Part shown: positions 10,695 to 37,842 of the stretch, piece by piece
How positions within the stretch are numbered: position 1 is the first letter of the stretch
Layout: each line of letters opens with the position of its first letter
NCBI RefSeq assembly: GCF_014638275.1
Contig: NZ_BMFJ01000001.1
Location: 1,228,338 to 1,292,337 of the forward strand
Direction: 5' to 3'
Length of the DNA stretch: 64,000 nt
From: Primorskyibacter flagellatus
GTDB lineage: Bacteria; Pseudomonadota; Alphaproteobacteria; Rhodobacterales; Rhodobacteraceae
The notes under the pieces: generated by a model
Seen by the model: the letters and a program-made list of their open reading frames with translations, nothing else
Told to the model about the DNA's origin: nothing
Database searches by the model: none
Made by a program: the position numbers and the translations under genes

Positions 10695-10784
10695 GGAGAG
10701 GTGCCGGAGTGGTCGAACGGGGCGGTCTCGAAAACCGTTGAGCCTTTACGGGTTCCCAGGGTTCGAATCCCTGTCTCTCCGCCA
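10695..10784 (+). tRNA. tRNA-Ser (anticodon CGA)
   Basis: A 90-nt class II tRNA including an encoded CCA. The acceptor stem GGAGAGG pairs with TCTCTCC (one G-U pair), discriminator G, CCA at 10782-10784. The anticodon stem-loop reads CGGT-CTCGAAA-ACCG, giving anticodon CGA for UCG codons. A long variable arm (TTGAGCCTTTACGGGTTCCC) is typical of tRNA-Ser, and the T-arm is CCAGGGTTCGAATCCCTG. Its 3' end is the integration target of the adjacent island; the T-loop-to-CCA part was supplied by the element at insertion and still gives an intact tRNA. Confidence 0.97.
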
Positions 10785-10785
10785 C
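10762..10785 (+). repeat. attL, 24-bp direct repeat at the tRNA-Ser 3' end
   Basis: The 24 bases from the T-loop through CCA plus one C (starting TTCGAATCCCTGTCTCTCC) recur exactly at 34745-34768. Integration at the T-loop/3' end of a tRNA is the classic pattern for tyrosine integrases, and one lies beside the second copy. Confidence 0.9.
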
Positions 10786-10883: not shown

Positions 10884-11071
10884 TTTTCCGTCGAGAAAAT
10901 GGCAGCGTCCGTTCGCAGGCGTGATTTGCGACGCGGTGATCAGGATCCGGCTTGCCCGACCGGAAGCACGATGTCGAAAGGCTGGCGCGCGTCCGCGTCA
11001 CCGGATGCCAGAAAACGGTTCCCATCGGCAGTCACCCATGCTTTTCTGGCCCGAAAACGGAGCATTACGCG

Positions 11072-14000
11072 TTGTTGATTGATGAGTTTATTTCCCGCTG
11101 GCAGGCCTCCGGCGGGAACGAGATGGCCAACTTCCAGACCTTCGCGACCGAGCTCTGCGACATCATCGGCGTCGACCGCCCTAAGCCCGCGCAGAGCGAC
11201 GGGCAGACCAACGACTACCGCTTCGAGCGTCCGATCACCGAAACGCACACAGGTCGGCGCCACCACCGCCGCATGGATCTCTACCGCCAGGGCTGCTTCG
11301 TCATGGAAGCCAAGCAGGGTGCAGGGCCCAAGGCCGAGGCCGAACAGCTTTCGCTCCTGATTGAGGAAGACGCCCCGCGCGCACAGGGCGGCCATGGCCG
11401 CCGGGGCACCCGCGCCTTCGAGGACACGATGCTTCGGGCCCGGAACCAGGCTGACGGCTACGCCCGCGCCGTGGCGAAAGAAGACGGCTGGCCTCCGTTC
11501 ATCATGGTTGTCGATGTCGGGCATTTCATCGAGGTCTACGCGGATTTTTCGCGGCAGGGTCAGGGCTACACCCAGTTCCCGGACGGCAACCGCTACCGCA
11601 TCACGATGGAGGACCTGCGCGACGAGGTGGTCCGGAACCGGCTCAAGGCGATCTGGCAGGATCCCATGTCGCTCGACCCGTCCAAGACCGCCGCCAAGGT
11701 CACGCGGGAGATCGCCGGGCACCTCGCCGAACTCGGCAAGAGCTTCGAGGGACAGGGCCACGAGGGCGAGACCGTCGCCCGTTTCCTCATGCGCTGCCTC
11801 TTCACCATGTTCGCCGAAGATGTGGAGCTGCTGCCCAGGGACAGCTTCCGCGACAAGCTGCGCGAACTGCGCGGCAAGCCCGATCAAGCGCAATATGTGC
11901 TCCAGTCGCTGTGGGAGACGATGAACACCGGCGGCAACTCCCCCGTCCTGATGGCCAAGCTCCTCCGGTTCAACGGCGGGCTTTTCAAGGACGCGACCGC
12001 CCTGCCCCTCTCCGAACTTCAGCTGGGCCTGCTGATCGAGGCCGCTGAGGCCGACTGGCGACAGGTCGAACCGGCGATCTTCGGCACCCTGCTGGAACGC
12101 GCCCTGACCGCCAAGAACCGCCACAAGCTTGGTGCCCACTATACGCCGCGCGCCTATGTCGAACGGCTCGTCATGCCGACGATCATCGAACCGCTGCGCG
12201 CCGACTGGCGGTCGGTGCAGGCCGCGGTCGACCTTCTCCGCAGCCAGGACAAGGGCAAAGAAGCGCTCCAGCAGGTGCGAGACTTCCACCGTAAGTTATG
12301 CGACATCCGCGTGCTCGACCCGGCATGTGGGTCGGGCAACTTCCTCTATGTCGCGCTGGAGCTGATGAAGCGGCTGGAGGGCGAGGTGACTGCCCTGATG
12401 GAGGAACTGGGAGAACGCCAGTCCGCCCTCGGCCTCGAAGGGCATACCGTCGACCCGCACCAGTTCCTCGGGATCGAGCTGAACCCATGGGCCGCCAATG
12501 TGGCGGAGCTGGTGCTGTGGATCGGTTACTTGCAATGGCACTTCCGCACCCACGGGCAGGCCGCGCCGTCGGAACCGATCCTGCGGGATTTCAAGAACAT
12601 CGAGAACCGGGACGCCGTGCTGACCTGGACCGCCCGGACCGAGCGGAGGAATGACGACGACACCCCGGCGACCCGTTGGGACGGCGTGACCATGATGCGC
12701 CACCCCGCGACCGGAGAGGATGTGCCCGACCCCACAGCCCGCGTGCAGGTCTGGGACTATGCCGAGCCCCGCCCGGCGGCATGGCCGGAGGCGACCTTCA
12801 TCGTCGGTAACCCGCCGTTCATCGGGAACAAGAGGATGCGGGAAGCCCTGGGCGATGGCTATGTGGAGGCGCTGTGGAAGGCTTATCCGAAAGTGCCGCA
12901 GAGCGCCGATCTGGTCATGTTCTGGTGGGAGAAAGCCGCATTGATGGCGCGCGGGTTCGACGGCGAGACCGGTCTACGGCGCTTCGGGCTGATCACCACG
13001 AACTCCCTTCGCCAGACTTTCAACCGCCGGGTGCTGGAGCCACATCTGGGCGATAGCAAACGGCCCCTGTCACTGCTCTTTGCCATCCCGGATCACCCAT
13101 GGGTGGACACGGCGGACGGTGCGGCGGTGCGGATCGGGATGACGGTGGCGGCGTCAGGCTCCCGCCCGGGGCGACTGGTCACGGTCGTGTCCGAGAGTGG
13201 GGAGAGGAATGAGGCCGAGGGGAGACAAGTAGAAGTCACGCTTGCATACGGGAATATTCAGCACGACCTTCGAATAGGCGCGGAGTTGAGCTCCGCAAGT
13301 GACCTTCATTCAAATGACTTCCTCGCGCATCAGGGCGTCACCCCACTGGGAGAAGGATTTCGTGTAGAAGCTCGGGAAGCGATTTCCGTCAATGGCCAAG
13401 CCGTAGCCTCGGGTATCCTTCGAAGATACCTGAACGGTCGCCAGTTTCTTCATGGCGATGCCCCAGGATATATAATCGACTTTTTCGGACTTTCAGAAGA
13501 AGAATCGAGAAATAAGTATCCCGTCTTATACCAGCGTGTTCTTGATACCGTTCGCCCGACGCGAGATACATTGAAACGAGACGCATATAGGCAGCGATGG
13601 TGGATATTCGCTGAGCCGAGAAAAAAAATGCGTCCGGCGTTGGAATCGCTGGAACGCTATATTGCTACCTGCCGAACGGCCAAACACAGAATATTCGGAT
13701 TCCTCGAGAGCGACATTTTGCCTGACGCAAAACTGATTGCGATTGGCCTTTCAAATGCCGAAAACTTGGCCGTTCTGTCATCGGGCATTCATTTGAAATG
13801 GGCATTGGCGACCGGAGCTCATTTGGAGGACCGACCGAACTATAATCACGCCGATTGCTTTGCAAAATTTCCCTTCCCCGACCTCACCCCGGCACAACGC
13901 ACCACCCTCCGCGCCCTCGGAGAGGAACTCGACGCGCATCGCAAGGAGCGGCAGAAGGCCCACCCCAAGCTGACCCTGACCCAGATGTATAACACCCTCG

Positions 14001-14503
14001 AAAAGCTCCGCGCGGGCGAGGTGCTTGAGGGCAAGGACAAGCAGGTTTATGACGACGGGCTGATCGGCCTGCTGCGCGACATCCATGACCGGATCGACGC
14101 CGCCGTGGCCGAGGCCTACGGCTGGCCCGCCGACCTGCCCGAAGACGAGATCCTCCTTCGCCTTGTCGCGCTGAACCACGAACGCGCCGAGGAAGAAGCG
14201 CGCGGCCATGTGCGCTGGCTCCGCCCCGAGTATCAGAACCCCGACGGCCGCGCCGCCCAGGCCAAGACCGGCAAGCTGGAGATCGCCGCCGGCGCCAAGA
14301 CCGGCAAGGCCGCCTGGCCCAAGACCCTGCCCGAACAGATCACCGCCGTCCGCGAGGCGCTGGAGACCCTGGGAGAGGCCGACGCCGAAACCATCGCCCG
14401 GACTTTCCATCGCGGCCGCGCCGGATCGGTCGAGCCGCTGCTGGAGACACTGGCGGGGCTCGGGATGGCCGAAGCGATTGACAACAATCTCTACACTACT
14501 TGA
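11072..14503 (+). CDS. type IIG restriction-modification enzyme (MmeI-like)
   Basis: A 1143-aa single-chain enzyme with nuclease and adenine methyltransferase activity. An N-terminal PD-(D/E)XK site is visible (D69 in RMDLYRQGCF, then E79-A-K81). The methyltransferase has DPACGSGNFL at 416 (SAM binding) and NPPFIGNK at 580 (catalytic NPPF), the motif order of gamma-class N6-adenine enzymes. A C-terminal helical segment follows the target-recognition region. Residues about 718-932 (bases 13225-13868) are clearly AT-richer than both flanks and coincide with the expected target-recognition domain, a sign of domain exchange. A TTG at 11072 with ACGGAG 9 bases upstream places the start just before the conserved EFISRWQASGG; an in-frame ATG at 10952 would add 40 unconserved residues. 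Likely role: defence of the element or host against foreign DNA. Confidence 0.85.
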   Translation: MLIDEFISRWQASGGNEMANFQTFATELCDIIGVDRPKPAQSDGQTNDYRFERPITETHTGRRHHRRMDLYRQGCFVMEAKQGAGPKAEAEQLSLLIEEDAPRAQGGHGRRGTRAFEDTMLRARNQADGYARAVAKEDGWPPFIMVVDVGHFIEVYADFSRQGQGYTQFPDGNRYRITMEDLRDEVVRNRLKAIWQDPMSLDPSKTAAKVTREIAGHLAELGKSFEGQGHEGETVARFLMRCLFTMFAEDVELLPRDSFRDKLRELRGKPDQAQYVLQSLWETMNTGGNSPVLMAKLLRFNGGLFKDATALPLSELQLGLLIEAAEADWRQVEPAIFGTLLERALTAKNRHKLGAHYTPRAYVERLVMPTIIEPLRADWRSVQAAVDLLRSQDKGKEALQQVRDFHRKLCDIRVLDPACGSGNFLYVALELMKRLEGEVTALMEELGERQSALGLEGHTVDPHQFLGIELNPWAANVAELVLWIGYLQWHFRTHGQAAPSEPILRDFKNIENRDAVLTWTARTERRNDDDTPATRWDGVTMMRHPATGEDVPDPTARVQVWDYAEPRPAAWPEATFIVGNPPFIGNKRMREALGDGYVEALWKAYPKVPQSADLVMFWWEKAALMARGFDGETGLRRFGLITTNSLRQTFNRRVLEPHLGDSKRPLSLLFAIPDHPWVDTADGAAVRIGMTVAASGSRPGRLVTVVSESGERNEAEGRQVEVTLAYGNIQHDLRIGAELSSASDLHSNDFLAHQGVTPLGEGFRVEAREAISVNGQAVASGILRRYLNGRQFLHGDAPGYIIDFFGLSEEESRNKYPVLYQRVLDTVRPTRDTLKRDAYRQRWWIFAEPRKKMRPALESLERYIATCRTAKHRIFGFLESDILPDAKLIAIGLSNAENLAVLSSGIHLKWALATGAHLEDRPNYNHADCFAKFPFPDLTPAQRTTLRALGEELDAHRKERQKAHPKLTLTQMYNTLEKLRAGEVLEGKDKQVYDDGLIGLLRDIHDRIDAAVAEAYGWPADLPEDEILLRLVALNHERAEEEARGHVRWLRPEYQNPDGRAAQAKTGKLEIAAGAKTGKAAWPKTLPEQITAVREALETLGEADAETIARTFHRGRAGSVEPLLETLAGLGMAEAIDNNLYTT

Positions 14504-15471: not shown

Positions 15472-15978
15472 TCTGGGTTAGGGAATAATGACCACTGCCG
15501 TCGGAATGCTGTCCGCCGAGCAATCGCCGCATAGGCTGCAACCTTCTCAATACCGTCTGCTGGAACCAAAGCCTTCTCAATCTTCACCGGTGACACGACA
15601 TCGGAAAACTTTAGGCACGAAATGCATGTCGCGAACGCGCAAACACGAACGCCGATCATAGCTTTCCCGGAGATTTGAACCGTATCGTTTAGGTCGGGTC
15701 CGCATCCCAACATAGAGGCCCCAGGCGTCGTAAACTGCCCGACAGGACGCACGTCAACACATTATGTAGTAAGAACGTTCAGCGTCTACTCCAAGGGGCA
15801 AGTTTTGCCTCTGTTCTAAGGCCAAGCGGTAGACATTTCTTTGTCCTCAGCAAGCTCATGAGCATGTGAGCTTCCGACCTTCTCAACGGTGCCGGATTGG
15901 AAACGCGTTGTGGCGGAGTCGGCAACAACACTCGTAACCAAGTCCTGAACTCCTCTTCACTGCACTATGGAGTTCCCG
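15472..15978. other. 507-base gap without a convincing gene
   Basis: AT-rich at the left, mixed at the right. A minus-strand open frame spans 15390-15752 but has no family resemblance and overlaps the end of the membrane protein gene, so I do not call it. No repeat, tRNA or clear promoter was recognised. Confidence 0.5.
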
Positions 15979-16428
15979 ATGCAGACACCCGCCTACACCC
16001 GTGACGAAGTTCTTGCCGCCGCCATGACTCTCATGGCCAGGGGGGAAACCCCTGACCGACTGAACTTGTGGAATGCTCTCGGCCGCCGTGGCCTCGCCTT
16101 GACCGCTTGGCGGACATACCTCGCCGCGCGTGAGGAAGGTCTTCCCGACCTGCCTCGTCAGATCATCGAAGAAGGGATTTCGCCAGAGGTCGCCAAGGCC
16201 ACGCAGGCCCATTCCGATACACTTCGGACCCTGGCCGAGGCCATCAGTGCCGAAGCGGCCCGGCCGCTCGAGCTTCGCGTCCAAGCCCTCGAAAAGATGC
16301 TTGTCGAGCGAACCGCATCAGTCAACGACCTCGAAGCTCTCGTGGATGCGATGGAAGAGCAGATGGCAGATCTCGAAGGCCAACTGTCCCAGATCAAGCG
16401 GGGCAATACCCCTCGCCTCATTATCTGA
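15979..16428 (+). CDS. KfrA-like DNA-binding coiled-coil protein
   Basis: A 149-aa protein whose first 55 residues (YTRDEVLAAAMTLMARGETP, then NLWNALGRRGLALTAWRTYL) match the layout of the KfrA N-terminal DNA-binding domain: a helix with V-x-AA, a G-x-xP turn, then a recognition helix and a tryptophan. The rest is predicted coiled coil (LRVQALEKMLVERTASVNDL, ALVDAMEEQMADLEGQLSQI). KfrA proteins are plasmid-borne autoregulators and partition accessories. It lies directly before the primase-like replication gene, which supports a plasmid-maintenance origin of this part of the island. ATG 15979 is preferred (GGAG 6 bases upstream) over ATG 15967. Confidence 0.6.
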   Translation: MQTPAYTRDEVLAAAMTLMARGETPDRLNLWNALGRRGLALTAWRTYLAAREEGLPDLPRQIIEEGISPEVAKATQAHSDTLRTLAEAISAEAARPLELRVQALEKMLVERTASVNDLEALVDAMEEQMADLEGQLSQIKRGNTPRLII

Positions 16429-27594: not shown

Positions 27595-28419
27595 TCAGTT
27601 CGCGCAGGTGAACTGGCCGCGGAACCCGGCGGTGTAGTCGGGCCCGGCGGTCACGATCAGGTCTTGAAGGTCGTCGTCTTCGGTCTGTTTGACCTGCGCC
27701 GTCAACGGGCCGGCGGCAAAGCCGTCGCCATCGGCCTCAAGCCGGACAAGGTCGCCGCTGATCCGGATCAACGCGCTGTTGTCGCCCGTCACAAGCACCG
27801 GCGGGCTGGTCTCGGTATAGGTGAAGCGGCAGTCGGCACCATCGGGGAAGACCTTCGCGATGTCGTCCTCCGTCAGGAACTCCGGATCGACGGTCTTGAC
27901 GACCTCGGTCGACAGCGCCTCGGCAGCATCCTTCAGCTTCGGCGCGGCGGCGGCAGGCCCCGGCTGTGCCTCGCCATTCGCCGCGATGTCGGCGAGCAAG
28001 TAGCGCATCTCGGCGATCTCCTTGTCCTGAGCGTAGATGATCCCATCCGCCAGCTCGCGCACGCGCGGGTCGGTCAGATTGGCCCGTGAAGAGGTCATGA
28101 TGGCGATCGAATGGTGCGGGATCATCGCGCTCATGTAGGACCGGTCCTGCACAGTCGCCTGGCTGCGCACCAGCCAGAGCGCCCCGGCGAATACGACGAC
28201 GGACCCGGCGAAAATGGCGATATTGGCGGTGCGGTTCTTATACATGCCCAGCATGAAAGCCAGCATCACGAAAGCCATAACGGCCCCCATGACCAGCGCC
28301 ATGTAGGCGCGCGTTTCCGACCAGAAGACATGGCTGACGAGATAGGTGTTCAAATACATCAGACCGAGCATCAGCAGGGTCGAGGTCGCGATCATGAGGA
28401 AAAAACGGGTGTAGGCCAT
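27595..28419 (-). CDS. DUF305 membrane-anchored protein
   Basis: A 274-aa protein. Three hydrophobic helices at the N-terminus (about 5-30, 38-60, 65-85) are followed by a periplasmic DUF305 domain with the hallmark MSAMIPHHSIAIMTSSRA and AQDKEIAEMRYLLADI. DUF305 is ferritin-like in fold and is often found in copper and heavy-metal resistance loci. Residues 150-274 are an extra C-terminal beta-rich domain of unknown role. First gene of the minus-strand copper operon; its ribosome-binding site lies inside a perfect 11-bp inverted repeat, listed separately. Confidence 0.82.
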   Translation of the reverse strand: MAYTRFFLMIATSTLLMLGLMYLNTYLVSHVFWSETRAYMALVMGAVMAFVMLAFMLGMYKNRTANIAIFAGSVVVFAGALWLVRSQATVQDRSYMSAMIPHHSIAIMTSSRANLTDPRVRELADGIIYAQDKEIAEMRYLLADIAANGEAQPGPAAAAPKLKDAAEALSTEVVKTVDPEFLTEDDIAKVFPDGADCRFTYTETSPPVLVTGDNSALIRISGDLVRLEADGDGFAAGPLTAQVKQTEDDDLQDLIVTAGPDYTAGFRGQFTCAN

Positions 28420-28423
28420 CGGG

Positions 28424-28448
28424 GTTCTCCTGAAGTGTTCAGGAGAAC
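28424..28448 (-). promoter_or_regulatory. perfect 11-3-11 palindrome over the DUF305 ribosome-binding site
   Basis: GTTCTCCTGAA and TTCAGGAGAAC are separated by three bases. The AGGAG of the DUF305 gene, which starts 5 bases away, is inside one arm. As DNA it could be an operator for a dimeric regulator; as RNA it would form a hairpin that hides the ribosome-binding site. Confidence 0.55.
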
Positions 28449-28454
28449 AACAAC

Positions 28455-28471
28455 CCTCCAGTGGCTGGATG
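28455..28471. promoter_or_regulatory. CueR-box-like palindrome upstream of island copper operon
   Basis: CCTCCAG-TGG-CTGGATG matches 14 of 17 positions of the palindrome in the chromosomal copA promoter (37852-37868). The flanking -35 and -10 hexamers are poor on either strand, so it may be a degraded or differently placed site. It suggests control of the minus-strand copper operon by CueR. Confidence 0.45.
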
Positions 28472-28514
28472 TTCCCGAAAAAGTCATGAAGCCCGCATGA
28501 GGACTGACGAAATC

Positions 28515-28853
28515 ACCGGGTCCCATTGGTTAGCCGCCGCGAAGGCGGTAGAGGAGAAAAAGGTGTTTCCGTCTGAAACGGCGCCACCCTATCTCCTTGC
28601 CAAGGACCCGGTGTGAGCCGCCGCGTAGACGGCTGAGAAACAACGCTCTTGATACAAGAGTGCGCCGGGTCCCACCAGTTAGCCGCCGCGAAGGCGGTAG
28701 AGGAGAAAAAGGTGTTTCCGTCTGAATCGGCGCCACCCTATCTCCTTACCAGGGACCCGGTGTGAGCCGCCGCGTAGGCGGCTGAGAAAGACGCTCTTGA
28801 TACAAGAGTGCGCCGGGTCCCACCAGTTAGCCGCCGCGAAGGCGGTAGAGGAG
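28515..28853. repeat. structured 149-bp tandem repeat with CRISPR I-F-like hairpins
   Basis: Two full units and a partial third. Each unit has hairpin A (CCGCC-GCGAA-GGCGG) at 28529-28556, 28678-28705 and 28826-28853; a 56-base segment; hairpin B (CCGCC-GCGTA-GGCGG followed by CTGAGAAA) at 28613-28640 and 28762-28789; then 36-37 bases with hairpin CTCTTGATACAAGAG. An outer inverted repeat CCGGGTCCC/GGGACCCGG encloses hairpin A. B is 28 bases long and ends in CTGAGAAA, the form of a type I-F CRISPR repeat and its 8-nt handle. Intervals between A and B are 56 and 36-37 bases and nearly identical between units, so this is not a normal spacer array. No cas gene is present. The first B copy has one change in its stem. 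Confidence 0.75.
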
Positions 28854-29051
28854 ACCGCGATCTCCAGCCCGAACTTCGTGATCCTTGTGTTGAAGATGCG
28901 GATATCGCCCCGGTGGGAGATCGCAGGTCCCCAAGGAAAAACCTTCGGAGACGGCAGTCAGATTGCCAATCCCTCAGGTCACAACCGCTCCGATTCAGTT
29001 CTTCATGGAATCATGCGGTAGCTGCTGATCGCGACTATCGGTCGATGCCGG

Positions 29052-29333
29052 CTATTGCTTCTCTCCGGGCGACGCGGGCAGAGGCTCAAGACCAAGAAAC
29101 TTCCGATCTGTCGGTCGATTGATGTGTTTGTCGATGAACCGTTCCAACCTCTTGCGATCCTCCGGGCTGGCCTTGGCCATCGCCGCCAGAAACGCACCAC
29201 CGTGGATGTATTTACGCCGATCGTCCTCCTTGCGCTGACGCTTCTTCTCCTCGCCCTCCGCAGATTTCAAGCGCGCCTGCGCCTGCTCCAGCTTTTCCTT
29301 GAGCATCTCTACCCGTTTGCTGCGATCTGTCAT
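29052..29333 (-). CDS. small mobilization accessory protein (MobC/TraD-like)
   Basis: A 93-aa basic, mainly helical protein (KRVEMLKEKLEQAQARLKSA, EEKKRQRKEDDRRKYIHGGA, DRKRLERFIDKHINRPTDRK). Short proteins of this type, with a coiled N-terminal half and a KYxxGGA centre, are encoded divergently from MobA/MobL relaxases in alphaproteobacterial elements and help assemble the relaxosome. It is divergent from the relaxase at 29550, and the intergenic region contains the oriT. Family assignment rests on position and overall shape. Confidence 0.65.
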   Translation of the reverse strand: MTDRSKRVEMLKEKLEQAQARLKSAEGEEKKRQRKEDDRRKYIHGGAFLAAMAKASPEDRKRLERFIDKHINRPTDRKFLGLEPLPASPGEKQ

Positions 29334-29459
29334 GGGACCACCTCCTGATTTCGCATTTCCGAAAGGGAGATGTTGCCCCGCCTTGCTTCGCGCACCCGAA
29401 AATCAGAACGGCGACGCGAGAACATCTGTGCACGGCACCAGTCCCCGCCGCCGAGAGGC

Positions 29460-29491
29460 AAGGGCGCAGTTACGCAAAGTTGAGACTTTGC
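29460..29491 (-). other. oriT with nic site of the RSF1010/Ti (MobQ) type
   Basis: Read on the minus strand: inverted repeat GCAAAGT-CTCA-ACTTTGC (29491-29474), one G, then TAACTGCGCCCTT (ending at 29460). RSF1010 has an inverted repeat followed directly by TAAATGCGCCCT, and pTF1/Ti-type sites have TAAGTGCGCCCT; nicking is within this core. Position between the accessory and relaxase genes fits exactly. Confidence 0.8.
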
Positions 29492-29549
29492 CGCGCGCTG
29501 CCGCGGGCATTGAGGAGCGGATACCCGCCCCGGGCATGATTTCATTTCC

Positions 29550-30788
29550 ATGAAACACTCGCGCCCACATCCAGCCAGCCATTGCCCACTCCTGGTCATT
29601 TCCCGATCGGACGGGCGGTCATCCGTCGCCGCGGCCGCTTACGCCTCTCGGAGCCGGATGACCGATCATCGGACTGGTCTGATTTTCAACTATCGCAATG
29701 TTCCGGGTCTCCTGCACGAGGGCCTCGTGGGCTGGGAATCCTCAGCCGAGGAACTTTGGAACGCCGCCGAGAAATCCGAGGTGCGAAGCAACGCGCGTGT
29801 CGCGAGGGAACTGAGGCCGGCCCTGCCCGCTGAGCTGCCGCACAACGAGCAGATCCGTCTGGTTCACGGGTTTGCGTGCTGGCTGCGAGACTCGTTCGGC
29901 GTTGCCGTCCATTATGTGACCCACGCCCCCAGAGTCTTCGACGAAGAATGGGGGAAGGCGCTCTGGAAAAACCGTGGGACGGAGGTCGGCGAACAGGACT
30001 ATTTTACCGCTCTAAAAGACCCAACAAAGAGCAATCTCAACTTTCATGCGCACATCCGGTTCACGACCCGGGAAGTCGAGCGCGATAGTGGCGTTTTCGG
30101 AGAGAAAACGCGTGTGCTCGACGCACGGGACACCGGTGCCGCCTGCGTCCTTCTCATGCGCCAAGAATGGGAAACCCGAACAAACGCCGCGCTCAAACGC
30201 TGTGGATCATCCGCTCGTATCGACCTGCGTTCCTATGCCGATCAAGCAGCGGCTGGCGACGCGCCGGAAGGGCTTGAGCCCCAGAGGCACGAGGGACCGA
30301 AGACGGCAGCGATCAAAAGAAAACGACGGCAGGCAAAAGCAGCACCAGCGGGGGCCAGACAACGGGACCGCGCGCCCGTGCGCTCAAGGAATGAGGCTCT
30401 GTGGCAGGCGTGGGATCTGAAGCGCGCGAGGCAACGGGAAGAAGCTCGGAGATCCGGAGAGTCGCAGCATATCGCGAACAAGCGGGAGGCTGAGCGCCGA
30501 CAGGAAGCCACGGCTCATGCCGACAGGATCCGTTCGGCCGATACTGATGAAGCAAGAAGGGCCGCGGTCGAACAGTCACACTCCGTCGAGAGCACTCGAG
30601 CTGGATGCGGCTGGGCTCAGGCTATCAGCGACGCAATGGCCGGACGCGGTCCCTTCGCCGAAGGTTTCGAGAACGACGAAACGATAGATCCCGAGAACTA
30701 CAATCTGCCCCATGCTCCGGAACCCGAACCGATCATGCGGCCGGTCGCGGTGAATCGCCGCTCACCGCGGCAGCGCACACGGGGATAG
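29550..30788 (+). CDS. MobQ-type relaxase (MobA/MobL family)
   Basis: A 412-aa relaxase that nicks oriT and pilots the strand during conjugal transfer. The N-terminal domain has LVISRSDGRSSVAAAAYASR (residues 15-34), corresponding to the AAYR region of MobA/MobL, and the metal-binding motif NFHAHIRFTTREV with H166 and H168, usually HxHxLxTTR. The catalytic tyrosine is probably Y31 in AAAYASR. The C-terminal half is a basic, Arg/Glu-rich helical region (KRKRRQAKAAPAGARQRDRA). There is no helicase or primase domain, so processing stops at nicking and strand transfer; a host coupling system is needed. Confidence 0.88.
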   Translation: MKHSRPHPASHCPLLVISRSDGRSSVAAAAYASRSRMTDHRTGLIFNYRNVPGLLHEGLVGWESSAEELWNAAEKSEVRSNARVARELRPALPAELPHNEQIRLVHGFACWLRDSFGVAVHYVTHAPRVFDEEWGKALWKNRGTEVGEQDYFTALKDPTKSNLNFHAHIRFTTREVERDSGVFGEKTRVLDARDTGAACVLLMRQEWETRTNAALKRCGSSARIDLRSYADQAAAGDAPEGLEPQRHEGPKTAAIKRKRRQAKAAPAGARQRDRAPVRSRNEALWQAWDLKRARQREEARRSGESQHIANKREAERRQEATAHADRIRSADTDEARRAAVEQSHSVESTRAGCGWAQAISDAMAGRGPFAEGFENDETIDPENYNLPHAPEPEPIMRPVAVNRRSPRQRTRG

Positions 30789-31544: not shown

Positions 31545-31616
31545 CCACCGGCAGTGTGACCGGCCCCTCGATGATGAGGGCCGGCAGCACTCCGGCTCCC
31601 AGACCTGGAGAAAAAC

Positions 31617-32036
31617 ATGTTTCCGAAACCCACCACATACGCCAACGGCAACAACCATCGCTTGGTGCATTTCTTCGATCAGAAAATGCAGGGAGATTTC
31701 GAGAGGATGGAGGACATCCTCGCTGACGCGTCGCGCCATACCCGAGCAGCGTGCGAGGAGATCACCCAGCTTCCCTACGAGGCGTTCAAGCCGCTCCAGA
31801 GGTGGTCCGGTGACCTCGACCGGCATCTCGAACAGAACTCTCTGCTCACCGAGGATTTCCGCCACGCTGCCCGATCGGCACTTCGCGAAATGGCGCAACT
31901 GGAGCCGGAGCTGGCCCCCGGTCTGATCGAAGATGCCACGCGACTTTTGCGCGATGCTCTGGAGGCGTCCTACCGGGTCTGCGACTTGCTCGCAGCGGAG
32001 CAAGCCATCGCCAAGCACCGCGGAAACCGTAACTGA
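31617..32036 (+). CDS. hypothetical helical protein (139 aa)
   Basis: Not recognised. An acidic, almost wholly alpha-helical protein (MQGDFERMEDILADASRHTR, LLTEDFRHAARSALREMAQL, LIEDATRLLRDALEASYRVC). It has a good GGAG ribosome-binding site. It follows the PemK-like gene by 72 bases on the same strand. Confidence 0.5.
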   Translation: MFPKPTTYANGNNHRLVHFFDQKMQGDFERMEDILADASRHTRAACEEITQLPYEAFKPLQRWSGDLDRHLEQNSLLTEDFRHAARSALREMAQLEPELAPGLIEDATRLLRDALEASYRVCDLLAAEQAIAKHRGNRN

Positions 32037-33264: not shown

Positions 33265-34596
33265 TCATGCGAGATGATCGGGCACCGGCAAGGACAGCTG
33301 CTGGGCAATCTCGTGCCGCTTTTCGAGCGTCACATCGTCACCGTAGACCGGCCGCCCCCGGATCTTTTTGATGCTGTGGCCCATCATGTGGCCCTTCTCC
33401 GTTTCGCTCACCCGGAACGCCTCCATCCTGCTCTCCCAGGAATGCCGCAAACCTCCGATCGTGTGCTCTGGCGAAGGAAAAAGACCACTTGTCCTGAGGC
33501 GACCATTCACATTGCCGGAATACCCACCTTTTCCGCGATACCTGGGGAACCCATTCGGGTTTCGCCGTGCCGCCGCCAAAGCGACGCCCACCAATGGCAC
33601 CTTTCGTTTTGACGCAGTGTTCTTGATTTCGCGCCGGTGAGCCCCGTCGCTATTCGCGACGAGTATATGCGGAATAGCTGCATCCAGCACGATCGCCTCT
33701 GGCGGAAGATCATGGATTTCTGATTGCCGACACCCCGTCTCGATGGAGATCAGCAGGATGTCACGCGCCTCCGCATTGAGATTGTCGAACGCCCCGGGTG
33801 CAAACCATTTCTCGACGATCCAGTCGGTCGAGATTTCGAGCTTCCGGTTTTCATCATTGTGCCGATCACGCAGACTGACCCTCCGATACGGCTCGGGAGG
33901 GTTCGGTCGCGCGATGTTCTCGTAGTAACGCCTAAGCATTCCTGCGAGGTTGGCGAACTCTTTGTTTGCGCTCTCAATCGCGAGGCCTTCGGCAGCCACC
34001 CTGCGCTTCCACCACGCTCGATGCCGTAGCGCGACCGCATGGTCGATATCCTCCACGAGGATGTCGGCACCGTCCAACGCCGCCCGTAGGTTGCTGGCAG
34101 CCCGGATTTTCGCATTGCGCCAGACCCGCATCTGGTTGGGATTTTTGAACCGATTGTCGAATGCAGCAAGCTGCTCATCAGCAGCCGCGAACTGGGATAG
34201 TCGCAGGCCCGTCTGCTCTACGCCGCCAAGCACGGCCTTCGCGACCGTTGGATCGCCTCCATGCCTTTCCACGGCGGCGAACCGATTCAACAACTCATCG
34301 AGGGGCGCGGTTACCAGTTCCGCGACCGGGCGATAGAGAAATCCCTCATTGGCCGCGATATGCGAGGCAGCGGCCAGTTGATCTACCGTGTCTGACATTT
34401 CCGGTGTGAGCGCCCGCATCACCTCAAGGTCCCTGAGGATTTGTGCTTCAGCAGCGGGCAGGAGCTCGCGCGCGCGTCGCTCGCTGTCCGTCCGAAGACT
34501 GCGATGAATCTCACTGCGACCGGCGACATCGAGATATCTACGCGGGACCCGCATCCGGAGATGCCAAGTGCCGTTTCGCTTATGCAATCCCGCCAT
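33265..34596 (-). CDS. int: tyrosine recombinase (site-specific integrase)
   Basis: A 443-aa integrase. The N-terminal region (residues 1-60, GTWHLRMRVPRRYLDVAGRS) is the arm-binding type seen in P4-like and related phage integrases, followed by a SAM-like core-binding domain. Catalytic residues are R290 (ETGCRQSEI), R384 in a GLRHSWESR box, H407 (MGHS) and the nucleophile Y418 (PVYGDD). It catalyses integration into and excision from tRNA-Ser. The gene is transcribed inward from attR, and a candidate arm site (34645-34667) lies 49 bases upstream of its start, where binding could repress int itself. No excisionase gene was recognised. Confidence 0.92.
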   Translation of the reverse strand: MAGLHKRNGTWHLRMRVPRRYLDVAGRSEIHRSLRTDSERRARELLPAAEAQILRDLEVMRALTPEMSDTVDQLAAASHIAANEGFLYRPVAELVTAPLDELLNRFAAVERHGGDPTVAKAVLGGVEQTGLRLSQFAAADEQLAAFDNRFKNPNQMRVWRNAKIRAASNLRAALDGADILVEDIDHAVALRHRAWWKRRVAAEGLAIESANKEFANLAGMLRRYYENIARPNPPEPYRRVSLRDRHNDENRKLEISTDWIVEKWFAPGAFDNLNAEARDILLISIETGCRQSEIHDLPPEAIVLDAAIPHILVANSDGAHRREIKNTASKRKVPLVGVALAAARRNPNGFPRYRGKGGYSGNVNGRLRTSGLFPSPEHTIGGLRHSWESRMEAFRVSETEKGHMMGHSIKKIRGRPVYGDDVTLEKRHEIAQQLSLPVPDHLA

Positions 34597-34744: not shown

Positions 34745-34768
34745 TTCGAATCCCTGTCTCTCCGCCAC
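34745..34768 (+). repeat. attR, 24-bp duplicate of tRNA-Ser 3' end
   Basis: Exact copy of 10762-10785. Only the T-loop-to-CCA part is present, so it is a duplicated tRNA tail and not a tRNA gene. It marks the right edge of the island. Confidence 0.9.
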
Positions 34769-34822: not shown

Positions 34823-35242
34823 TCACACGGCTTTCGGCGCAGTATCCTCGCCGCAGGCTGCATCGGCGAGGCGGTCGAGGATCGCGCAGTCGGAGGTGTC
34901 GTCACCGGGGCAGCTGGCAATCAGCGAGGTGAGCTCCGTTTCCAGCGCGCGCAGGCGGCGGATCCTTGCGCGGACCGAGCGGAGATTCTCCTGCGCGAGG
35001 GCGCGGACGTCCCGGCTCGCCCGGTCCGGGTCGGCGTTCAGGTCAAGCAGGCGGCGGCATTCGTCCAGCCCGAACCCAAGGTGGCGGGCCTGAGCCAGAA
35101 GGCGCAGCTGCGTGATCTGTCGGTCGCCGAAATCGCGGTAGCCATTGGCGGCGCGGTCGGCGGTGACGAGGCCGATCTCTTCATAATAGCGGATGGTCTT
35201 GACCGGGAGACCGGTCAGGCCGGCGGCATGTCCGATGTTCAT
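34823..35242 (-). CDS. cueR: copper-responsive MerR-family activator CueR
   Basis: A 139-aa MerR-family regulator. The N-terminal winged helix (IGHAAGLTGLPVKTIRYYEE then IGLV) is followed by a coiled dimer helix. The Cu(I)-binding cysteines are C111 and C119 in CPGDDTSDC, a C-x7-C spacing matching E. coli CueR. It activates copA when cytoplasmic Cu(I) rises by twisting promoters with 19-bp spacers; such a promoter is found before copA (37843-37873). ATG 35242 begins directly at the winged helix; an in-frame start at 35290 adds 16 unsupported residues. It is downstream of copA on the same strand. Confidence 0.93.
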   Translation of the reverse strand: MNIGHAAGLTGLPVKTIRYYEEIGLVTADRAANGYRDFGDRQITQLRLLAQARHLGFGLDECRRLLDLNADPDRASRDVRALAQENLRSVRARIRRLRALETELTSLIASCPGDDTSDCAILDRLADAACGEDTAPKAV

Positions 35243-35289
35243 GGGCGGCTCCTTTGCATCATATGAGGGGGTCTGCTGCCCGGGGGTCA

Positions 35290-35345
35290 AGGGGGGCGCG
35301 GCCCCCCGCCCTGCGGACGTGCTCCGGAGTATTTCCGGAAAGGTG
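35290..35345. repeat. dispersed GC-rich repeat copy (weak)
   Basis: Contains GGGGGGCGCGGCCCCCC-type palindromic sequence and GGAGTATTTCCGG, related to the GCCTCCGGCGGGGATATTT-type dispersed repeat at 41213 and 53089. This copy is poor. Confidence 0.35.
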
Positions 35346-35353
35346 ACGCGGCA

Positions 35354-37804
<2,451 letters not shown>

Positions 37805-37842
37805 CGGCGGATCCCTTCCTTCCTCAAGGAGCATGGATCGCC

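Follow-up and report, generated by a model that had tools for sequence, protein, structure and literature searches.

A hairpin-rich tandem array in a copper-resistance mobilizable island resembles type I-F CRISPR repeats and may be a minisatellite

The window (the whole 64,000-nt stretch of Primorskyibacter flagellatus DNA analysed here) contains a tandem array at positions 28516–28854 of the + strand, made of 2.3 head-to-tail copies of a non-coding unit of 148/149 bp. We put at roughly one half the probability that we are dealing with a hairpin-rich minisatellite lying between the genes of one Pseudooceanicola copper-resistance mobilizable island, and we infer that it has no dedicated function. 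This reading is favoured because copy number differs at the same island site in three species (2.3 in the window, 3.3 in Pseudooceanicola onchidii, and at least 2.3 in Pseudooceanicola atlanticus), and because the units diverge like nearby intergenic DNA, with unfavourable covariation (a two-sided change that keeps the pair in 1 of 46 pairs). It is also favoured because no copy was found in viral_contigs, phages, or plasmids, and because close copies in genome_contigs come from P. onchidii and P. atlanticus only, with 143 of 147 genomes giving no covariance-model match. Against this reading, no other part of the window is as structured on the + strand, variable columns avoid the predicted stems (8 of 14 folds, p < 0.05), the hairpin loops seen all have the form G-N-R-N-A, and all three islands of this kind retain the array.

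Architecture and genomic setting of the array

Tandem Repeats Finder reports the array with a period of 149, 2.3 copies, 95% matches, and a score of 613, the top of eight rows for the window. Unit comparison divides it into unit 1 (149 bp, 28516–28664), unit 2 (148 bp, 28665–28812), and a partial third unit (28813–28854) that stops after the A box, all on the + strand. The segments 28516–28640 and 28665–28789 form a 125-nt direct repeat with 94% identity, and a 64-nt piece is present three times, one of these at 72%. The duplicated 149-bp unit with hairpins reported in the preliminary description is thus borne out.

Each unit contains a hairpin A, a 28-nt element B, and a third hairpin, CTCTTG-ATA-CAAGAG, and the order of the A and B hairpins along the + strand is A-B-A-B-A. 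Specifically, hairpin A reads AGCCGCC-GCGAA-GGCGG in the window, with the loop GCGAA, and a core pattern scan places its copies at 28532–28548, 28681–28697, and 28829–28845. Element B lies at 28613–28640 and 28762–28789, and the third hairpin lies at 28646–28660 (fold prediction and palindrome scan) and 28794–28808 (palindrome scan). Cores of the form AGCCGCC-N5-GGCGG start at 28532, 28616 (one mismatch), 28681, 28765, and 28829. When as many as two mismatches are allowed, the window contains eight core matches, where 1.26 are expected; the array accounts for five of the eight, and none of 100 shuffles reaches eight. The two B elements had been given one stem sequence; both hairpin cores are present, but the 28613 copy has one broken stem pair (columns 106/114), the only such case among seven complete B copies from the three carrier genomes.

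The A-B gap is 56 bases and the B-A gaps are 37 and 36 bases, as counted earlier, and the intervals between hairpins are near-identical from unit to unit. A 42-bp box, consisting of hairpin A and its left flank, is present at either end of every unit; recombination between these boxes would add, remove, and mix 149-bp units. Hairpins A and B agree at 22 of 28 letters, which suggests that both descend from an old duplication. Fold prediction closes a domain in unit 1 (28516–28611, + strand), in which an outer stem (28516–28523/28604–28611) encloses hairpin A and an interrupted long stem (28551–28557/28592–28598), a domain that covariation does not support.

The array stands in a 24-kb mobilizable island (10762–34768) bounded by att repeats, which are 24 bp of the 3' end of tRNA-Ser(CGA), at 10762–10785 and again at 34745–34768. 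Strong similarity to both relatives, P. onchidii and P. atlanticus, ends at 34768. The island encodes an integrase-like protein (33265–34596; PHROG integrase, E = 2.6e-17) and, on the + strand, a MobA/MobL relaxase (29550–30788; E = 1.2e-33), which family models place as MOBQ-like with a MobQ score of 144.7 bits, under the cut-off of 200. It also carries copper genes (two multicopper oxidases, a CusF-like protein, and DUF305), a primase-like protein with weak matches (PrimPol AEP domain, E = 0.0079; PHROG replication protein, E = 1.3e-6), and a KfrA-like N-terminal match, under the curated cut-off, at 15967–16428. A large protein encoded at 10952–14503, just within the left end of the island, weakly resembles BREX PglX methyltransferases, with a score under the cut-off. 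Just beyond the right att repeat, a MerR-type regulator and a heavy-metal P-type ATPase are encoded at 34823–37834.

The array lies between the DUF305/DUF6692 gene (27595–28419, – strand; family model and plasmid alignment) and a small gene beside oriT (29052–29333, – strand), which has no family match and was named mobC-like for its position, the positional model being mobC of MOBQ4 plasmids (PMC6856555). Motif comparison across relaxase loci identified an oriT-like motif at 29460–29478 on the – strand (AAGGGCGCAGTTACGCAAA on the + strand), 0.6–0.95 kb from the array. The motif is exact at three other loci (L015, L024, and L030), whose relaxases match that of the island at 54–68% identity. 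One of these, L030 (C1:1696720–1698012), is a second relaxase in the host genome; it is 58% identical to the island relaxase and has the same oriT-like motif, and the hairpin core is absent within its locus. The nicked strand and direction of the island motif at 29460–29478 were assigned from the MOBQ nic orientation, and by the same assumption the array is on the side of the oriT-like site that enters the recipient first.

The DUF305 gene, together with about 60 bp upstream, aligns to two plasmids (H1 and H2), both without the array. Upstream of the gene, at 28450–28476, is a palindrome that we take to be CueR-like, and a similar one is found in a Falsirhodobacter plasmid. The promoter of the DUF305 gene seems to lie between the array and the gene, because these 60 bp are kept in array-less plasmids (the sequence was read for H1). 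A copper-operon leader or riboswitch was rejected: in the two plasmids the gene retains the upstream segment with the palindrome, and the array was found in no plasmid.

Copy number, distribution, and divergence

The 361-base array query matches the host genome once. A looser core, with one mismatch allowed, occurs 31 times in that genome, the five array copies included; because a reversed-pattern control gives 50 matches, these stray cores are at chance level. Among 100 relatives searched, the host included, the array was found in three, each time at the same place in the same island. P. onchidii has its 3.3 copies at the equivalent site. In P. atlanticus the assembly breaks inside the array: the contig that carries the copies at the equivalent site starts within a B, after which come two complete units and then an A box, and a second contig terminates in an A box followed by the first 78 bases of a unit. 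Many unrelated chromosomal copies, an outcome that the preliminary description had set against its own reading, were looked for and not seen, the repeat occurring at one locus in the host and, in the relatives found to have it, in this island only.

Wider searches gave the same picture. An exact A-box pattern, which detects close copies only, returned three stretches from genome_contigs, and the same pattern together with two further exact patterns found no array copy in viral_contigs. A distant BLAST search with the array found no match among plasmids and phages. A covariance model of the seven units, run with strict filters and with 21 candidates scored per genome, matched four of 147 genomes, the fourth (G045, a non-carrier) at E = 0.2; this match and those at L015 (E = 0.076) and L026 (E = 2.7) are at chance level and were rejected as distant homologues. 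The two genomes with the next nearest integrases in the genus (G021 and G009, 61–62%) have no array match among the seven candidates scored in each. A literature search found nothing on the 149-bp repeat. A different hairpin-rich tandem repeat, with a 130-bp period and 2.1 copies, was seen at L026 2820–3096 (genome G144), downstream of a distant relative of the relaxase; it has no Rfam family at cut-off.

Comparison of the window with P. onchidii shows that one entire unit was gained or lost, with one difference each in the adjoining 662 and 197 bases. With the units taken in order, 6 of 296 sites differ. This differs significantly from the rate in the adjoining, mostly coding flanks (2/859, p = 0.0047) and in all surrounding pieces (9/1357, p = 0.037), but not from that in the adjoining intergenic DNA (1/293, p = 0.12) or in intergenic DNA including the oriT region (6/509, p = 0.37). 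Faster evolution of the array than of its flanks is thus not robust and was discarded. Compared with P. atlanticus, the units have a mean divergence of 7.1%, the intergenic DNA right of the array differs at 13/197 (6.6%) and 15/216 (6.9%) sites, and the mobC-like gene differs at 4/282 sites (1.4%). Judged from these alignments, the array is conserved no better than the intergenic DNA nearby. Because the units are about as diverged as the right-hand intergenic pieces, we see in these comparisons no sign of tight constraint on the array, and its copy number is labile.

Alternative roles for the hairpins

In a first alternative to the minisatellite, which we regard as rather unlikely, the + strand would be transcribed as a tandem structured non-coding RNA, comprising the closed domain, hairpin B, and the CTCTTG/CAAGAG hairpin. 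The hairpins would be the working parts of such an RNA, for instance as protein-binding sites at the G-N-R-N-A loops, and additional copies would raise the dose. The folding results are consistent with this reading. Among 1278 windows of 150 nt, the array holds the two most stable after G+C correction on the + strand (z = –3.77) but ranks third, not first, on the – strand (z = –2.69). For a 371-nt array piece, z is –7.39 on the + strand and –6.71 on the – strand. In addition, two one-sided stem changes (pairs 132/144 and 135/141) pair as U-G on the + strand, where the – strand would have A-C. Predicted stems are less variable than loops (p < 0.05) in five of seven single-copy folds on the + strand and in three of seven on the – strand.

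Other evidence argues against the RNA. The RNAalifold covariation term is unfavourable (+0.47), and changed pair cells, summed over 14 folds that are not independent, number 146 kept against 176 broken. No Rfam family reaches its cut-off in the arrays of the window, P. onchidii, or P. atlanticus. A consensus scan of 28300–29600, by which diverged boxes would be missed and whose consensus is unsuited to some organisms, found no sigma-70-like site, and conservation, as described above, is no better than in neighbouring intergenic DNA. Three proposals for a coding or antisense role were also rejected. A 17/19 match of the units (28553–28571 and 28702–28720) to the start of ORF 31617 (31607–31625) is no better than for shuffled units, 35 of 150 of which reach the observed score. 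A 17-codon GTG mini-ORF preceded by an SD-like stretch (28563–28616 and 28712–28765) is open in all seven units, and its variable sites (nine nonsynonymous and two synonymous) give no sign of selection for a leader peptide. A minus-strand protein remnant has no match in plasmids.

The hairpin loops seen are GCGAA, GCGTA, GCATA, GCGCA, and GAGTA; all fit G-N-R-N-A, a stable loop class, and changes are few. It is conceivable, if unlikely, that islands of this type use the array as a functional element of a kind not yet described, namely tandem G-N-R-N-A hairpins, as a multi-domain RNA or as folded transferred-strand DNA in the leading region, which a protein of the island or the host would recognise during establishment in a new cell. 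In that case a shared loop fold would account for the likeness to type I-F repeats, and the array would represent a new kind of repeated hairpin element on mobilizable islands. Even a nut-like array for antitermination is conceivable, the CGCTCTTGA piece being boxA-like and the hairpins boxB-like.

It is doubtful that the hairpins act as single-stranded DNA on the transferred strand, either as ssi-like priming sites, perhaps read by the primase-like protein of the island, or as a leading-region single-strand promoter. The primase-like gene and the position of the array, close to the oriT-like site on the side presumed to enter first, are consistent with this reading, which the preliminary description had raised in the form of an initiation hairpin for the primase. 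Hairpin ssi sites and leading-region promoters are known elsewhere: RSF1010 ssiA is a 40-nt hairpin site (PMC4434180), and leading regions often contain single-strand promoters (PMC11541004). However, RSF1010 has one ssi per strand and no array (PMC4434180). Moreover, the hairpin core is found in none of 18 other relaxase loci (L015–L032, up to 1.5 kb on each side, with L030 in the host genome and L026 and L032 overlapping), although L015, L024, and L030 have the same oriT-like motif. No sigma-70-like boxes were found in the scanned region either, although diverged –35 and –10 boxes would escape the scan.

Still less probable is an anchor for a DNA-binding island protein, in which case the array would serve partition, replication, or a regulator. 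The tandem arrangement of inverted and direct repeats and the sub-cut-off KfrA-like match are compatible with such a role. However, the CTCTTG palindrome has no further above-chance copy in the window, no copy of the unit lies around the primase-like and KfrA-like genes, and 149-bp units are long for operators.

Resemblance to type I-F CRISPR repeats and to other known systems

Element B resembles the type I-F repeat family CRISPR-DR4 (RF01317 of Rfam), a family picked after B had been seen from an Rfam that contains 4227 families. B scores 15.5 (28613 copy) and 25.1 bits (28762 copy) in the window, 18.6, 18.6, and 25.1 bits in P. onchidii, and 28.3 and 25.1 bits in P. atlanticus, so that seven of seven complete copies are under the curated cut-off of 35 bits. 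Some A copies also match (15.6, 15.6, and 21.6 bits, in P. onchidii and P. atlanticus). When the three carrier genomes were scanned with the model, with the best 150 of 2098–2759 candidates scored per genome, one place had E < 0.001 (a B of P. atlanticus, E = 7.3e-4 for one genome) and none reached the cut-off. The seven copies agree with the DR4 consensus at 19, 20, 19, 19, 20, 21, and 20 of 28 letters, the copies at 28613 and 28762 at 19 and 20, rather than the roughly 22 given in the preliminary description. The best other 28-mer in the window agrees at 18 of 28, and across 15 further loci a count of 19 is attained by array copies alone. By this letter count, B is the closest I-F look-alike in reach, a point in favour of the preliminary description. 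However, the handle CTNAGAAA is replaced by CGGAGAAA in two of the seven copies. The T-A to C-G stem change that had been called compensated departs from the I-F consensus, and no such change occurs among the array copies.

The Csy4 model found no match in 60 relatives, the three carriers included, none in 394 family genomes (347 with a completeness of 90% or more and a contamination of 5% or less), and one in 385 class genomes; these samples overlap and some genomes are incomplete, and the E. coli control was positive every time. The Cas1 model found none in the three carrier genomes. The earlier statement that cas genes are lacking thus holds for the two models covered. Similarly, the view that the array is not adaptive memory agrees with its near-identical intervals. 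Type I-F CRISPR arrays have near-identical repeats separated by differing spacers of about 32 nt; the array has no such differing spacers.

According to a published search for solitary repeats, RNA anti-CRISPRs (Racr) of type I-F require C6 and G20 at the stem base, and matches below 90% identity were dropped (PMC10651486). B has C6 and G20, and its 28-nt length, 5-nt loop, and GAGAAA tail also suit a decoy. However, its identity is at most 75%, measured against the Rfam DR4 consensus rather than the 17,823-repeat database of that search (PMC10651486). Nor is the array solitary, as hairpin A stands 36–37 bases from each B. An RNA anti-CRISPR or decoy for type I-F Cas6f is therefore not supported and is very improbable, because the scores are sub-cut-off, identity is below 90%, and the nuclease target has no match in the family sample and a single one in the class sample; the broken stem, the replaced handle, and the lack of a promoter-like site in the consensus scan also weigh against it.

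B owes its I-F likeness to its GAGAAA tail, its G-N-R-N-A loop, and its G+C stem of 5 bp, and we take this likeness for convergence rather than kinship. The best fit among the three readings in the preliminary description is thus the third, in which an intergenic repeat rich in hairpins looks like I-F repeats by chance. Evidently, a mobile element can carry a convincing 28-nt CRISPR-like hairpin even where no CRISPR partner was found in reach, which calls for caution in searches for solitary repeats and RNA anti-CRISPRs.

Compared with the type I-F repeat, B has the same 28-nt length, a 5-bp stem at 6–10/16–20, a 5-nt loop, and a tail ending in AGAAA. It differs in its sub-cut-off scores, its 19–21 matching letters, and a stem extendable by two pairs, and the array differs in its fixed intervals (56 and 36–37), where CRISPR has variable spacers, and in having no Cas1 in its carriers and no Csy4 in the family sample. 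Like RacrIF1-type solitary units, the array places a repeat-like hairpin with the C6-G20 stem base on a mobile element with no nearby cas genes; unlike them, it is tandem, its identity is too low, and no target system or promoter was found. With RSF1010 ssiA/ssiB and F-type Frpo it shares hairpins on mobilizable-element DNA close to transfer functions, but it is tandem, has no recognition sequence or promoter boxes that we found, and is absent beside related relaxases. Although unusually hairpin-rich and, as far as searched, confined to one mobile island, the array is like bacterial intergenic minisatellites or VNTRs in its head-to-tail units of about 150 bp and in a copy number that varies between close relatives.
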